Part shown: piece by piece, positions 34,980 to 41,653 of the stretch
Layout: each line of letters begins with the position of its first letter
How positions within the stretch are numbered: position 1 is the stretch's first letter
Source of the DNA: Acidimicrobiia bacterium
GTDB taxonomy: Bacteria > Actinomycetota > Acidimicrobiia > ATN3 > PSLF01
Assembly (NCBI GenBank): GCA_040289475.1
Contig: PSLF01000010.1
Span: 1 to 64,000 of the forward strand
Direction of reading: 5' to 3'
DNA: 64,000 nucleotides
Position numbers and translations under genes: made by a program
Notes under the pieces: model-generated
The model's database searches: none
What the model was told of the DNA's origin: nothing
Seen by the model: only the letters and a program-made list of their open reading frames with translations

Positions 34980-35930
34980 CTAATGCTGAGAATCGATCCC
35001 GGCTCTTCGCCTCCTACGAGTCACGACAGCAGAAGTCACCATAGCCGCGAGAGTCCCTCCCACCGCAACGGCCGACCAGATAGGACTCGAGAGCTCGAGC
35101 CCGCGAGCGCCCTTGTTATCGCTGCCGCCATCCTCCCGGCTCGCTTCGCTGGCAGTGACTTCAGAAACTGGACTTTCCGTTTCGGTCAACGCCACTCCAG
35201 CTCTTCCAGCGTCTCCAGGCACTGCCAGTTGTCCCCCTTCGCTGGCCATCTCGGATGCAGTGTGAGAGCTCTGCCCCGTTCCACCTGCGCTTCCTGCTTG
35301 GGAACCGGCAGCATTCTGCTGGCCGGTAGCAATCGCTACGACTTCCCCGCTGCTCGAAGACCCCGGCGAGTTAGCACTCGAAGGAGGAGAGCTTCCTCCA
35401 CCACCGCTTCCAGCAGTTCCGCCGGACGCACACCCCGCAGTCTCGCAGAAAGAGTAAAAGGGTGGAGGCTGGCCGGTCCCGAATTTCCAGCCCTCGACGT
35501 CTTTATCGTGCACCACAGAGGCGCCAGCGCCCACCGATGAGTAGGTATAAGAAGTAGATCCGGCTGGTGCTCGGAAATATGCCCAATAGCGTGGATCCGA
35601 TGGTGTACCAAGACAAGTCTTGGCCGTCGGCTCGTGCCCTATCCCGAAGAGCTTGCACACTGCCGCGCCTTGACCCGAGTACCCGAGAGTCACCGGATCA
35701 GCACCGGCTAGTCGAAGTGCATCCAGACCGGTTATCGACGAGCTTGAGAAGGATACAACTCGAACATAAACGTTGTCTCCTGTATCTACCACAACAACAG
35801 CTCGATTCGAGGCAGCTGCGGCATCCCGAGAGACAGCTCCTACAGCCGGAATTCCCAAAACGAGGAGTGCTGCTAGCGCCGAAGCGCAGCGGCGCCTGGC
35901 GCTCAGATCAAGAAGCTGCAAAAGCTTCAC
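34980..35930 (-). CDS. Surface protein with DUF4430-like (transcobalamin beta-domain-like) domain
   Basis: 316-residue protein with a signal peptide (about 1-40), a beta-rich domain at about 43-155, a long Gly/Ser-rich linker (about 165-280) and a C-terminal membrane helix followed by RRRRR, so it is displayed on the cell surface. The domain shows the DUF4430 pattern: SITGLDALRLAG, YWAYFRAPAG, and SVVHDKDVEGWKFG near its end. C92 and C106 may form a disulfide. Established: DUF4430 is related to the C-terminal domain of transcobalamin/intrinsic factor. It starts 3 bases after the alpha-barrel gene and lies behind a cobalamin riboswitch, so corrinoid binding is the likely role. No function has been shown. 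Confidence 0.8.
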   Translation of the reverse strand: MKLLQLLDLSARRRCASALAALLVLGIPAVGAVSRDAAAASNRAVVVVDTGDNVYVRVVSFSSSSITGLDALRLAGADPVTLGYSGQGAAVCKLFGIGHEPTAKTCLGTPSDPRYWAYFRAPAGSTSYTYSSVGAGASVVHDKDVEGWKFGTGQPPPFYSFCETAGCASGGTAGSGGGGSSPPSSANSPGSSSSGEVVAIATGQQNAAGSQAGSAGGTGQSSHTASEMASEGGQLAVPGDAGRAGVALTETESPVSEVTASEASREDGGSDNKGARGLELSSPIWSAVAVGGTLAAMVTSAVVTRRRRRAGIDSQH

Positions 35931-35933
35931 GTG

Positions 35934-37673
35934 TTATCTAGCTGCTATCGCAGGTCCACCTATCGCATCGCCAGAAAGGTACGGCGGTGCATAGATTGTG
36001 TGGTCGACCACCACACCTGCCCCCGACGACTCCACCTTGGTAGCAACGTTGAAGTCCGAGGGTACCCAGTCGTTGGCCCGCACCGAGCGCCTGGTGCCTG
36101 GAGGAAGCACAAACGAGGGACCCGGGACCTGTCCCGATCCGGTCAGGAAGGTCACAGTGATGTTCGCGTTCTGGGTGGGATCCGGATTAGCTACCAGCAC
36201 CCAGGTTTCAAAGCCTCCTGCGGTAGCTCCTTCTGGCAGGAACCAAGAATGAGCTGGGCGCGCTATTTCTTTTCCTAAATGAGCACCCCGTTTATCGCGC
36301 TGAGTCGAGTACACAGCACGCTCGGAGTAGACAGGACGATCGAGACTCTCCACCACGGTCCCTACGTCAAAAGTAGTCACATAGTCATTGACTTTCACCG
36401 ACCGCCTTGAAAGGGGCGGAATTACGACCAGTGGACCGACCTGAGATCCCGTTGAAGTGAGAAACGTAAGGCGGGCAGTTGCATCCTCGGTCGGATCGGG
36501 ATTCGAGAGTAAGATCCACGTTTCAAAGCCACCTGCGCTAGCTCCCTCCGCGAAGTAGCCACGAACGGCACAGCTTGAACTAGCCTTAGCCACCGGCAAC
36601 CAGCGCCTCAGTAGAGCTTGGACGGACTGAGACGTCGCAAACGTAGTGATTCCGAAACTGTCGTTCGGGCTCTTTATATGTCCGTCCGCATCCTGCTGAA
36701 AGGCGAGCCAAGAGTCGGGTGATACGTACGGTGCTCCTGCTCCTTCGTGATAAAACTCGTCTCGCCAACATGAAGAGTTGACGTCATAACCGGCGGCGGT
36801 AACTCCAAGGATTCCCAACGCCGTCGAGTTCGGATCCGCTGAAGAGAAAAGCGATGGCCAGCTACCGTCGGGGTTGATGCTGCGAGCTAAAAGGCCGAGG
36901 GCCTTAGCAACAGCTGGATCCGAAGCATCTGCGCCCCCAGCCACCAATGCCTGGATAGCCAAGCCTGTCGTGTCCACATCCACATCGGTGCCGGAGGGAT
37001 CTCCCAAATAGTTCCACCCCCCGTTGGTCTGCTGCGCATTTCGCACAGTCGCAAGAGCGGCTGGAGGCACATGACCATCGCATATCAAATACTTGGCGAG
37101 AATACCGAAAAGGGTCTGATTGAAATACCCGAAGGTAGCTGTGTTCGCCGCGCATCCACCTGGATCAAGCGTAGCTGACAGGTCCACCGGCGATGGAGAG
37201 TCCCCGGAAGGATCGAAGTCGGATGGATTAATCCCCAAAGGTACAGCGTCCAGCACTATGAGTTTAGCTGCTGTCCCCGCCGAGCTGCTCGCCTGGGCTT
37301 GCTCGGCCATCTTGTCGAGGTAGTCGAGAGGAGAAGGCCCCGATCCACCGTAGCGCACGGCCTGAACGGCAGCAAAGGCCTCGGCACTGCTCCAAACAGG
37401 CATCGTCTGAGAGGCTTCAGCGATGGCCAGAACGGCATCGGGTGTCTCGAAGCCTGGGAAACCGGCAATCTCGAAGCCTCCGTCGCTTTGTTGCTGGCTC
37501 TTTATCCAGGCAACTGCTTTCGAAGCAACGGTCTGTGATCCGCCGGTAGCGGCCGCGTTAGTGAGGGTAAAAACCGGCAGTAAAACGCCCGTAAACACAG
37601 AGAGTATAAGAATCGCAACACCAGCGCCCAACACACGCGCTCGAGGCTGACCGAGTTTTCCAGACTTTCTCAT
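35934..37673 (-). CDS. Secreted prenyltransferase-like alpha/alpha-barrel protein (transcobalamin alpha-domain-like)
   Basis: 579-residue exported protein. After an N-terminal hydrophobic signal (about 14-40) come squalene-cyclase/prenyltransferase-type repeats at about 53-365, including WIKSQQQSDGGF, AQQTNGGWNYLG, VDTTGLAIQALVAGG and SINPDGSWPS. No cyclase DxDD motif is evident, so an enzyme is unlikely. The C-terminal part has two tandem beta repeats starting GYFAEGASAGGFETW and FLPEGATAGGFETW. The same barrel fold forms the N-terminal half of transcobalamin. The ATG at 37673 follows GGGGGAGG. First gene after the cobalamin riboswitch, so expression should rise when B12 is scarce. Confidence 0.82.
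   Translation of the reverse strand: MRKSGKLGQPRARVLGAGVAILILSVFTGVLLPVFTLTNAAATGGSQTVASKAVAWIKSQQQSDGGFEIAGFPGFETPDAVLAIAEASQTMPVWSSAEAFAAVQAVRYGGSGPSPLDYLDKMAEQAQASSSAGTAAKLIVLDAVPLGINPSDFDPSGDSPSPVDLSATLDPGGCAANTATFGYFNQTLFGILAKYLICDGHVPPAALATVRNAQQTNGGWNYLGDPSGTDVDVDTTGLAIQALVAGGADASDPAVAKALGLLARSINPDGSWPSLFSSADPNSTALGILGVTAAGYDVNSSCWRDEFYHEGAGAPYVSPDSWLAFQQDADGHIKSPNDSFGITTFATSQSVQALLRRWLPVAKASSSCAVRGYFAEGASAGGFETWILLSNPDPTEDATARLTFLTSTGSQVGPLVVIPPLSRRSVKVNDYVTTFDVGTVVESLDRPVYSERAVYSTQRDKRGAHLGKEIARPAHSWFLPEGATAGGFETWVLVANPDPTQNANITVTFLTGSGQVPGPSFVLPPGTRRSVRANDWVPSDFNVATKVESSGAGVVVDHTIYAPPYLSGDAIGGPAIAAR
36255..36575 (-). repeat. Tandem beta-repeat coding units in the alpha-barrel protein
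   Basis: Two related units, one starting near 36565 and the next near 36255 on the minus strand, encode the motif (A/P)EGA(S/T)AGGFETW followed by NPDP and RRSVK/R..ND. The DNA of the two motif starts is similar but not identical. This suggests an older internal duplication of an exported beta domain. Confidence 0.6.
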
Positions 37674-37799
37674 ACCGACCTCCCCCGACCCCACTCCACG
37701 AGGGTCGTCTCAAGCCGCACATGCGGCAAGGGTACACAGATCAGCCGGAGAGACATCTACGTGAGCGCTAAATAATGCAACCCTTGCTCTTATCCTCCG

Positions 37800-37965
37800 G
37801 CGAGCGGCGGCGGGTACTCTGGCTTGCTTGCGCCCACGAGAGCGCTAGCTTACAGTTGCGGGTCAGCGCCGGACTTTCACCGGTCTTCCCCCGTCCGGAG
37901 AGCGCAGCCCTCCGGACCGCGTGTGACATCCGGGCCACACACGACCGCAGCTAAATCCGGATACT
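37800..37965 (-). ncRNA. Cobalamin (adenosylcobalamin) riboswitch
   Basis: On the minus strand the conserved core is clear: GGTGAAAGTCCGG (37869-37881 region) followed by CGCTGACCCGCAACTGTAA, then the B12 box GCCAGAGTACCCGCC at about 37809-37823. Stem sequences CGGTCCGGAG and CTCCGGAC flank a loop upstream. It lies about 130 bases before the start of the alpha-barrel gene and should repress that two-gene unit when cobalamin is abundant. No intrinsic terminator is obvious after it, so control may be at translation. Ends are approximate. Confidence 0.93.
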
Positions 37966-37982
37966 AGCGAAGCACACTGGCT

Positions 37983-40793
37983 ATGTCAAAGAATCCTCGA
38001 CTTCGAAAAACCTCAGCTTCGAATTGGCACGGTCTCGCCTGGCTCGCCTGGGCAGCGGCAGGGGCTATTACCATCCAGCTCGCATCCTCACCACTGTATG
38101 TCGGCTTGGTAATAGCCGCATCCGTTATTGTCGTGGTCACATCCGATGCCGAGCCCCCAAAAACCAAAGTGTTCGGACTGATAATGACGTGGGCTGTAGC
38201 GTTCGCGGCATTGCGCGTGGTCTTGACAGTCCTCACAGTCCATGCAAACGGACACACCATTCTCACAACACCAAGCTTGCAGGTTCCTCGAATTCTCGGT
38301 GGATTCGAAGTTGGGGGTCCTATAGATGCAGAGACGCTTTTCTCTGCCGGAAGTCAGGCCCTGTCAATCGTGGCGATAATTGCTGTTTTCGCCACTTTCA
38401 ATGCCGTGGCAAGCCAGCGAGATCTGGTCGAAGCCCTTCCTAGATCCTTCTACGAAGTGGGAGTTGCAATCGCCGTAGCATTGGCTTTCATACCTTCGAT
38501 CGCAGAGACCGTGTCCGAGACTCGTGAGGCAGACCGAGCGCGTGCAGGCGGCAGGCCTGTAAAAAAGCGACGCCTTCGTAGAGTTTTGGTCCCAGTCCTC
38601 GAAACCTGTTTGGAAAGAGCGGTTCTTCTATCCGAATCAATGGATGCACGGGGATTCGGAGCAAAAAGAGCTGCCAAGTACGAGGTGATGGCGGGATGGC
38701 TCGGCGTCGCTTCTCTTGGTTTCATGGGCTCGGCTCTCGTAGCCCTCGTAGCCAGGTCACAGTCCATAGCGGTGGCGCTAGGTGTTCTAAGCCTTGCGGC
38801 CTTGGGAGCGGCTTTCTATATCTCTGCTACCCACGCACCCTCCCGTTATAAGCGACGGCCGATCACTCGATCCGACGTCTGGATGGTACTCGCTTCTTTT
38901 GGGGCTCCGGCAACCACTTGGCTGGCCGCCCTTGTAGGAGACAAGTCCCTAGCCTGGCCCAGTGAAAGCCTCCGGTGGCCAGTCGTATCTCCTCTTCCCC
39001 TGGTGGGTGTCTTCGCATTACTCGCTCCGGTGCTTCTCCAGCGGCGGGCATTCTTACCGCAAGCTCTTGCAAACGAGGGCGACAAGCTGGATTCGTATTG
39101 CACGCAGGGGAGTTCGGAGATAATCGATAAGACTTCAACCAGACCACAGTCTGTCCGCTTCGACAACGTTCACTTTGAATTCCCAGACGGCACCAAAGCG
39201 CTTCTTGATATCTGTCTCGAAATCGAAAAAGGGCAGTGTCTCGTCGTAATGGGGAACTCAGGGTCAGGCAAATCCACACTTCTAAGGACGGTAAATGGCA
39301 TAGTTCCGCACTCGACAGGGGGAAGGCTATCCGGATCTGTATGGGTAGGTCCGTACATGACCTCTGCAACAAAGCCTCGCTATATGGCAGAGTTAGTTGG
39401 ATTCGTTCACCAAGATCCAGAAGCTCATTTCGTCGTCGATGAAGTCGAAAGCGACATTGCCTTTGCCGCCCGGAATATTGGACTCCCACCTCGAGAAATC
39501 GCGTACCGCGTAACCGAGATCGCAGAGCGACTCGGGATCGATTCTCTCCTGCACCGCAATCCTGCGACACTGTCGGGAGGTGAAAAGCAAAGGTGCGCGA
39601 TAGCCGCAGCTTTGGTATGTCGGCCCGCGGTCTTGGTCCTAGACGAGCCGACTGCTCAGCTAGATCCAGAGGGAGCCGACGCGGTTTTCGATGTTTTGGA
39701 GAACATACGATCGCATTTCGGCACTACCGTGATACTTGCGGAACACCGCCTCGAACGTGCTTCGCGACTCGCTAATCAAGCAGTCCATATGGAAAAAGGA
39801 AGGATCGAACGGCGGGGTTTGCCCAAGGAAGTAATCCCCTTTTACGAAGGTGCTCCAGAGGTAACCTCCCTCGGAGTTTTATTAGGCTGGGACCCGCCTC
39901 CTATAACAATCGAAGAAGCGGTTAGGCTGGCGTCTCGGTCTCTTAGACCGAGGTTTATGCAATCCTCGAACTCTAAGCAAAGACCGCCGCAGGCTTTCTC
40001 TACAAGATCGGGTCCGCTTTTAGCACAGTCGGCTTCTGAACTTGCTGCAAAACTCTCGAGCCCTGGAGAGGTTTATCTGAAAGCTCGCGGAGTGAGCGTG
40101 GCGTTCGGAACAATACAAGCCCTAAGAGACGTAGATTTCGAGGTCGCTGAGGGAGAAATAGTGGCTGTATTGGGGAAAAACGGATCCGGAAAGACCACGC
40201 TGCTACGAGTACTTGCGGGACTGATTACGCCAGGCACAGGACACGTGGAACGACTCTGCAGAGCAGCTTATGTACCTCAAGACCCAGGCACCCTCTTGCA
40301 TGCCGAAACCGTCTCTGAAGAGGTTTTAGCGACCCTCGATTTGTTGGGGAAGAAAGGCACAGCCCAAAAGCGCACCGCTGAGGTTTGGATGGAAGTGATG
40401 GGTCTTGCAGAGCTTGCTTGTCGTCATCCCAGGTCCCTTTCGGGAGGCGAAAGACAGCGACTCGCCATTGCTGCAGTCGCCGTGGGCGGCGCCGAAGTGC
40501 TTCTCTTGGACGAACCCACGAGAGGAATCGACGCGTCGTCTCGGAAGGTATTGATGGACTTCATTCCCTCTCATGCAAGAAGAGGGGGGGCGGTAGTAAT
40601 AGCGACTCACGACACAGACCTTGCAGCATCAGTGGCCACTCGTGTACTGATCCTCAACGATGGATATATAGTTGCCGACGGTCCTCCGAGACGCGTACTG
40701 ATCGGCACTCCGTTCGAACCCCAAATCTCGAAAGTATTGCCCCCATTTCTTTCGGTATCCGAGATAGAGCGCGAGCTCGCCGCAGTACGATGA
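37983..40793 (+). CDS. Fused ECF transporter: EcfT plus two ATPase domains
   Basis: 936-residue fusion of the three energising parts of an energy-coupling factor transporter. The EcfT/CbiQ membrane part (about 1-360) has five or six helices and coupling motifs ARAGG and DARGFG. NBD1 has Walker A GNSGSGKS (near 423-430), signature LSGGEKQ (near 530) and Walker B VLVLDEPTAQLD. NBD2 has GKNGSGKT (near 728), LSGGERQ (near 818) and VLLLDEPTRGID (near 839). These are normally three genes. The ATG has no visible ribosome-binding site. Divergent from the riboswitch-controlled genes and followed by an S component, so corrinoid uptake is inferred. Confidence 0.92.
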   Translation: MSKNPRLRKTSASNWHGLAWLAWAAAGAITIQLASSPLYVGLVIAASVIVVVTSDAEPPKTKVFGLIMTWAVAFAALRVVLTVLTVHANGHTILTTPSLQVPRILGGFEVGGPIDAETLFSAGSQALSIVAIIAVFATFNAVASQRDLVEALPRSFYEVGVAIAVALAFIPSIAETVSETREADRARAGGRPVKKRRLRRVLVPVLETCLERAVLLSESMDARGFGAKRAAKYEVMAGWLGVASLGFMGSALVALVARSQSIAVALGVLSLAALGAAFYISATHAPSRYKRRPITRSDVWMVLASFGAPATTWLAALVGDKSLAWPSESLRWPVVSPLPLVGVFALLAPVLLQRRAFLPQALANEGDKLDSYCTQGSSEIIDKTSTRPQSVRFDNVHFEFPDGTKALLDICLEIEKGQCLVVMGNSGSGKSTLLRTVNGIVPHSTGGRLSGSVWVGPYMTSATKPRYMAELVGFVHQDPEAHFVVDEVESDIAFAARNIGLPPREIAYRVTEIAERLGIDSLLHRNPATLSGGEKQRCAIAAALVCRPAVLVLDEPTAQLDPEGADAVFDVLENIRSHFGTTVILAEHRLERASRLANQAVHMEKGRIERRGLPKEVIPFYEGAPEVTSLGVLLGWDPPPITIEEAVRLASRSLRPRFMQSSNSKQRPPQAFSTRSGPLLAQSASELAAKLSSPGEVYLKARGVSVAFGTIQALRDVDFEVAEGEIVAVLGKNGSGKTTLLRVLAGLITPGTGHVERLCRAAYVPQDPGTLLHAETVSEEVLATLDLLGKKGTAQKRTAEVWMEVMGLAELACRHPRSLSGGERQRLAIAAVAVGGAEVLLLDEPTRGIDASSRKVLMDFIPSHARRGGAVVIATHDTDLAASVATRVLILNDGYIVADGPPRRVLIGTPFEPQISKVLPPFLSVSEIERELAAVR

Positions 40794-41653
40794 GTGCACA
40801 AAGATATTGTCCAGAAACCGTAGCGTCGCCGAAAGGATTGGCCGGAGAACCGGCGCGGCAAGTTCCGTCTCTACTCGTGTACGTTCTCGTAGCAGCCGTG
40901 GGCACATCTGCATTTCTATATCCGTTCTGGCTTCCTTCCGAGGCGCTTCCCAACTCTGCTCACTCCGGCGACGCTCCGTTGTTGTCGGCTGCTGTAGCAG
41001 CCATGGTCGTAATGGCGATTGTTTTCGAGGTACGCGGTGGCTCGATGAATGCCGCAGGAATAGCAGTGCTAGGGGTCCTGTCAGCGTTCGCAGGATTGCT
41101 TCGTCTCATTGACCTACCGGGCGGCGGTAGTGGAATGTTTTTCTTGGTCATTCTCGCTGCAGCTTCGTTGGGGCCTCGGTTCGGCCTATTGCTGGGGATT
41201 ACGGCAATGGCAGTCTCAGCCGTCGTGACCGGGGGTGTAGGGCCGTGGCTCCCCTATCAGATGCTGGCGTTAGGGTTTATGGGCGCCTCCTCGGGAGCGT
41301 TAGCAATCTTTAGCCGCCGACTCCCTCTATCTTTGGAATTGGTTCTGCTCGTAGCGTGGTCTTGGGTCTGGGGGTTCGTTTATGGGGCCATCATGAACCT
41401 GTGGTTTTGGCCATTCATGCGAGGACTGGGACCGTTGTCGTGGCAGCCGGGAATGGGATTTGTAGAAACACTCAAAAGCTACTGGCGTTTTTACGTTTCG
41501 ACCTCTCTCGCATGGGACGCCGCAGGAGCAATTTCAAACGCAGTACTCGTGGCCGCCACCGGCATACCAGTTCTTGCAACTCTGCGGAGGTTTGCGGCAC
41601 GAGTAGAACCCCCTGTTGTAATTGAGGCAATTGGAAGAAGTGCTAAAGCCTGA
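40790..41653 (+). CDS. ECF transporter substrate-binding S component (probable cobalamin/corrinoid)
   Basis: 287-residue membrane protein with about six helices, overlapping the end of the fused ECF gene by ATGA, so translationally coupled. Conserved-looking segments are LAAASLGPRFGLLLG, VGPWLPYQMLALGFMG and WGFVYGAIMNLWFWPF, typical of S components. The frame continues upstream to 40385, but that part lies within the preceding gene. Cobalamin specificity is inferred from the riboswitch and the transcobalamin-like genes next door; the closest known type would be CbrT-like. Confidence 0.85.
   Translation: MSAQRYCPETVASPKGLAGEPARQVPSLLVYVLVAAVGTSAFLYPFWLPSEALPNSAHSGDAPLLSAAVAAMVVMAIVFEVRGGSMNAAGIAVLGVLSAFAGLLRLIDLPGGGSGMFFLVILAAASLGPRFGLLLGITAMAVSAVVTGGVGPWLPYQMLALGFMGASSGALAIFSRRLPLSLELVLLVAWSWVWGFVYGAIMNLWFWPFMRGLGPLSWQPGMGFVETLKSYWRFYVSTSLAWDAAGAISNAVLVAATGIPVLATLRRFAARVEPPVVIEAIGRSAKA

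Follow-up and report, generated by a model that had tools for sequence, protein, structure and literature searches.

The closest described systems were predicted by Burroughs et al. (2007), who defined a transcobalamin-like clade of beta-grasp (SLBB) domains with toroid fusions in Firmicutes, found the fused proteins beside CbiO/CbiQ genes in bacteria without B12 synthesis and proposed that they scavenge B12 (PMC1796856). A literature search for experiments on bacterial transcobalamin-like proteins returned nothing beyond this 2007 prediction. On the transporter side, ECF-CbrT is a characterised ECF vitamin B12 transporter with no known surface binder (PMC5997447), and ECF modules behind cobalamin riboswitches are described in acI actinobacteria, in an account whose passages considered here mention no surface pair (PMC5301498). 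The Streptomyces families SCO2321 and SCO2322 (NF053823 and NF040672) occur in loci with ECF genes and a riboswitch; they carry no assigned function, and a literature search for them returned no relevant paper.

We investigated a locus within a window of 64,000 nucleotides, the whole stretch of DNA that was analysed, from an Acidimicrobiia bacterium. Like the Firmicute proteins of 2007, its products combine a toroid with a transcobalamin-type beta-grasp domain, are predicted to be exported and are encoded beside ECF-type genes in a genome where B12 synthesis is missing. In those low-GC Gram-positives, toroid and beta domain commonly lie in a single fused chain, whereas here there are two proteins, in Acidimicrobiia and Chloroflexota. 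The sequence-only reading of this DNA overstated its novelty, since B12 scavenging by toroid and beta-grasp domains encoded beside CbiO/CbiQ had been proposed earlier (PMC1796856). What is new, and sets the locus apart from the 2007 proteins, is the division into two proteins, a beta family that Pfam DUF4430 does not cover, a direct and near-universal link to cobalamin riboswitches, and the spread in Acidimicrobiia, Chloroflexota and Streptomyces.

The pair resembles animal transcobalamin, intrinsic factor and haptocorrin in the fold of its beta domain and in joining a toroid to a beta domain, which in some bacterial homologues share one chain. It differs from them in consisting of two separate, predicted surface-attached proteins and in having a toroid that is not specifically transcobalamin-like; the animal carriers serve an endocytosis receptor, whereas the bacterial pair would feed a membrane importer. 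That importer is of the ECF type and would carry cobalamin, as ECF-CbrT does, but it is accompanied by a candidate surface binder pair, and its EcfS has no detectable relation to CbrT. The combination of an ECF module and a cobalamin riboswitch in an actinobacterium without B12 synthesis is shared with acI (PMC5301498). Both window proteins gave weak but specific profile matches to the SCO2321 and SCO2322 families, which lie in the same kind of neighbourhood; the Streptomyces chains combine a beta domain and two toroid units, whereas the window proteins are separate and score far below the family cut-offs.

Layout of the locus and the need for B12

The coordinates proposed for the locus in the sequence-only reading held on re-check, and its features are collected in Table 1. 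For the toroid gene, an ATG at 37673, which stands behind GGGAGG, is a likelier start than the GTG at 37694. The beta gene begins 3 nt past the toroid stop codon, and the EcfS start ATG overlaps the EcfT-A-A stop (ATGA).

Table 1. Features of the riboswitch, toroid, beta and ECF locus, in window positions.
Feature	Position	Strand	Basis
Sigma-70-like promoter for the pair	37961..37989	-	TTGACA-17-TAGTAT, 10/12; consensus match only
Cobalamin riboswitch aptamer, RF00174	37807..37920	-	cmscan
Toroid protein gene, secreted	35934..37694	-	ORF, 586 aa from GTG
Toroid domain, residues 52-376	36567..37541	-	AlphaFold2, Foldseek
Two DUF5719-like beta repeats, toroid C-terminus, residues 377-586	35937..36566	-	PF18986
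Anchored beta protein gene	34980..35930	-	ORF, 316 aa
Putative signal sequence, beta protein	residues 1-40	-	judged by eye
Transcobalamin-beta-like (DUF4430-like) domain, residues 41-169	35424..35810	-	AlphaFold2, Foldseek, hhalign
Gly/Ser-rich stalk, beta protein residues 170-281	35088..35423	-	sequence
C-terminal TM helix and Arg-rich tail, beta protein residues 282-316	34983..35087	-	Kyte-Doolittle
EcfT-A-A fusion, 936 aa	37983..40793	+	PF02361, PF00005 twice
EcfS substrate-specific component	40790..41653	+	PF12822

The cobalamin riboswitch that had been read ahead of the toroid and beta genes was confirmed by cmscan, with an RF00174 score of 46.1 bits against a gathering score of 31.5 (E 2.2e-8). 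It is the sole cobalamin riboswitch across the 1.97 Mb genome. A consensus scan placed the promoter-like match just 5' of it, where shuffles expect a mean of 0.0 matches. In the leader RNA 3' of the aptamer, fold stability was not above that of shuffles and no terminator was found. The ECF genes had also been described as lying under the riboswitch; in the window this did not hold, because they are divergent from the strand that carries the riboswitch, toroid and beta genes and are therefore not under its control.

To examine the need for B12, the source genome (97% complete) was searched for B12-dependent and B12-synthesising proteins. Three proteins with a B12-binding domain (PF02310) exceeded the cut-off. 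Their lengths of 1156, 718 and 165 aa fit MetH and either a methylmalonyl-CoA mutase or a small subunit that binds B12. A PduO-type cobalamin adenosyltransferase is also present. No MetE, CobS or CbiC was found in the genome, whose 97% completeness limits such absence calls. Because B12-using enzymes are present and MetE, CobS and CbiC are absent, the genome, judged by its gene content, must import complete cobalamin. It contains only three TP-methylases, and no FecCD permease scored over the cut-off in the 97% complete assembly. The window locus is the genome's only riboswitch-controlled candidate for cobalamin import. Among Acidimicrobiia, CbiC occurred in 0 of 16 carriers of the pair and in 6 of 34 others (Fisher p 0.16), which is no more than suggestive of mutual exclusion between the pair and corrin-ring synthesis.

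Predicted folds of the pair and its transporter

The beta domain was modelled with AlphaFold2 at a pLDDT of 91, and on its overall predicted fold it is a transcobalamin-type beta-grasp domain. Foldseek against the PDB returned 15 matches at probability 1.00, all 15 of them transcobalamin, intrinsic factor or the DUF4430 structure 3u7z, and the next match dropped to 0.18; the E-values were modest (best 1.6e-3), and TMt was 0.68-0.77 against isolated domains. The earlier description of this protein as DUF4430-like is thus borne out by structure comparison. Comparison of its profile with PF14478 members by hhalign gave a probability of 93.9 (E 1.6e-7), against 2.7 and 0.3 for unrelated control profiles. 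Pfam searches yielded no match for the window beta protein, PF14478 included, and no PF14478 match in the Chloroflexota homologues or anywhere in the genome; membership of DUF4430 therefore rests on fold and profile comparison. The beta profile found no meaningful match among PDB sequences, transcobalamins included, and its similarity to the NCBIfam family SCO2322_fam was weak and below the cut-off (18.8 bits against 85, E 0.0017).

The Gly/Ser stalk and C-terminal anchor assigned to the beta protein from its sequence were recovered. The C-terminus has a Kyte-Doolittle value of 1.65, followed by 5 basic residues, and carries no LPXTG. The combination of stalk, C-terminal TM helix and basic tail is common to most beta homologues.

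The toroid domain was modelled with very high confidence (pLDDT 96.6, pTM 0.94), which upholds the alpha/alpha fold proposed for it. Its likeness to transcobalamin was not specific: type II terpene cyclases ranked first in Foldseek, whereas transcobalamin and haptocorrin appeared at rank 37 and below (probability 0.99-1.00), with TMq of about 0.60 for the cyclases and 0.42-0.47 for transcobalamin. The sequence profile also groups the toroid with squalene-hopene cyclases, and its DxDT motif is similar to the DxDD motif of cyclases. The predicted toroid is compatible with transcobalamin, but its fold is generic and alone not diagnostic. The proposed comparison with transcobalamin thus came out as specific for the beta domain and as compatible for the toroid. 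The toroid matched SCO2321_fam at 41.9 bits (E 5.7e-11), below the cut-off of 300.

The C-terminal 210 residues of the toroid protein are DUF5719-like (PF18986, 27.7 bits against a cut-off of 26.2). Their place is taken in homologues by LPXTG anchors, by DUF4214 or by nothing, so a surface-attachment role fits these C-terminal modules. DUF5719-like repeats also occur in large ORFs (658-1568 aa) on genome contigs C1, C4, C7, C9, C15, C19 and C24, which suggests a surface-protein module used across the lineage. The added beta repeats of the earlier reading are thus present, but their occurrence in many other ORFs makes them a general surface module. Toroids without other anchors end in PRFTG, PRLTG or PRGLTG (L035, L038, L039, L045, L077 and L078); this tail could be a protein-level feature or the product of an overlap with the start of the next gene.

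Pfam recognised every component of the divergent, fused ECF transporter reported next to the pair. The EcfT-A-A chain consists of a CbiQ-like T domain (PF02361, E 8.5e-9) followed by the two ABC ATPase domains, and EcfS matched PF12822 at 39.6 bits against a cut-off of 30.7, the sole PF12822 match in the genome. The EcfS profile found no PDB chain up to E 1, CbrT included; its specificity would be for cobalamin, as judged from context. In two related loci (L032 and L044), T and A-A are encoded by separate ORFs with a slight overlap; in the window they form one chain, for which either a true fusion or a single-base indel is possible.

Conservation of the pair with cobalamin riboswitches

Relatives were gathered by toroid similarity alone, so that neither the riboswitch nor the partner genes were selection criteria, and loci were counted after duplicate removal. 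We found toroid-beta pairs in 52 loci, 25 of Acidimicrobiia type, 19 of Chloroflexota type and 8 from Streptomycetaceae. A cobalamin riboswitch lies upstream on the same strand in 50 of them, within about 110-420 nt of one of the pair's domains, and in the two exceptions (L065 and L101) the toroid ORF starts at the contig start and the upstream region is missing. The expectation that the same pair would recur near cobalamin riboswitches elsewhere was thus confirmed, and the pair keeps to this riboswitch class in all three lineages. Riboswitch and ECF genes share the contig with 44 of the 52 pairs. By comparison, a riboswitch was found for 0 of 10 toroids without beta and ECF genes. Their sources include an archaeon and Pseudonocardia, and some of them sit on short contigs. 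A toroid and a riboswitch with no beta gene found nearby occur in three Acidimicrobiia loci (L056, L059 and L067), which counts against the pair reading. For part of the survey the riboswitch model was built from Acidimicrobiia riboswitches; Rfam confirmed the riboswitch in 14 of 15 Acidimicrobiia relatives, the remaining one (L040) being cut by the contig start, and in most of the more distant loci examined, from Chloroflexota and Streptomyces.

In Chloroflexota, the riboswitch is followed in one direction by the toroid gene, by one or two genes for beta proteins and then by EcfT, EcfA-A and EcfS, and this co-directional order links the ECF genes to control by that riboswitch there. Beta and toroid domains share one chain in a Caldilineales locus (L082) and in Streptomyces loci (L099 and L107, for example). 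These single-chain homologues argue for a shared function and support the proposal that the two window genes encode halves of one unit.

Several further features were observed among the relatives. One candidate for a clean fusion (L070) was rejected as strong evidence, because its two domains are separated by an LPRTG anchor and a further signal-like stretch. Two beta paralogues are present in each of six Chloroflexota loci (L079, L081, L084, L085, L089 and L111); the first is short with a PEP-CTERM-like anchor (PF07589 over cut-off, L085:9345-9995), and the second ends in a stalk and TM helix. Streptomycetaceae loci (L094, L097, L098, L099, L102, L105, L107 and L116) carry several cobalamin riboswitches on both strands, including ahead of an additional, divergent toroid gene, forming a small B12 regulon island. 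The labels of some metagenome bins are at odds with their sequences: loci labelled Acidobacteria bacterium (L051) and Bifidobacterium breve MAGs (L052 and L078) group with Acidimicrobiia-type sequences, and L051 matches a contig of a genome (G001) placed in the window's own order.

Proposed function and alternatives

We consider it highly likely that the locus serves B12 uptake. The explanation we prefer, at a probability of roughly 0.7, is a two-protein, transcobalamin-like trap for B12 at the cell surface that feeds the ECF importer. When B12 is scarce, the riboswitch, acting as an off-switch, would permit expression of the toroid and beta genes, and both proteins would be secreted. The beta domain would be tethered by its flexible stalk and C-terminal membrane helix, and the toroid protein may be held at the surface by wall-type modules, here the DUF5719-like repeats. 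Toroid and beta domains would together enclose a single cobalamin, in the manner of the two domains of transcobalamin (alpha and beta), before passing it to EcfS of the adjoining transporter; the imported cobalamin would serve MetH and methylmalonyl-CoA mutase-type enzymes. The two proteins probably form such a joint binding unit, and hand-off to the neighbouring importer is also favoured, if slightly less firmly. This toroid-beta arrangement is very probably how related bacteria collect B12.

The strongest competing explanation accepts a B12 uptake locus but makes the toroid and beta proteins independent binders, or a relay that captures and then passes on the ligand, with no joint closure. 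The frequent presence of two beta proteins per toroid in Chloroflexota, the several toroid domains in some loci and the few riboswitch-bearing toroids without a nearby beta gene would all suit it. We nevertheless regard it as unlikely, since the genes stay together in 52 loci and form one polypeptide in several lineages, and since the domains of transcobalamin sandwich B12 jointly (PMC1796856).

It is less likely still that the ligand of the pair is an incomplete corrinoid (cobinamide, for example), cobalt or a different solute related to B12, a proposal prompted by the cobalamin riboswitches of other bacteria that also govern cobalt and precursor transport (PMC3766115). Without CobS and CbiC, the usual route from cobalt or cobinamide to cobalamin is closed, and the beta domain folds like those of cobalamin binders. 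A third alternative, in which the toroid would be a secreted enzyme, terpene-cyclase-like or other, the beta protein would be an adhesin with no relation to it and the riboswitch link would be a regulatory coincidence, is hardly credible, despite top sequence and fold matches to squalene-hopene and type II terpene cyclases, given the riboswitch link in 50 of 52 pairs from three lineages, the change of DxDD to DxDT, the export of the toroid and a beta fold specific to transcobalamin-type proteins.

Two further points count against the preferred explanation: the toroid model matches terpene cyclases better than transcobalamin, and ECF transporters normally bind their substrate by the S component alone, so that a surface binder is not obligatory. 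The proposed capture complex would be unusual in giving such a transporter a substrate binder of the soluble type. Few organisms synthesise B12, which is exchanged as a nutrient in lakes, soils and sediments. In Bacteroidetes, B12 binders are known at the cell surface, but B12 collection by bacteria without an outer membrane is poorly described. The riboswitch-linked pair offers a concrete, testable candidate for it in Acidimicrobiia, Chloroflexota and Streptomyces. The pair also suggests a function for the two uncharacterised Streptomyces families, SCO2321 and SCO2322, and bears on the origin of animal transcobalamins: we tentatively raise the possibility that a widespread class of ECF transporters uses a dedicated two-protein extracellular complex that assembles around cobalamin as transcobalamin's halves do and lets cells lacking an outer membrane trap scarce B12 at their surface, and that the fused animal carriers may be one outcome of an older, two-part bacterial design.
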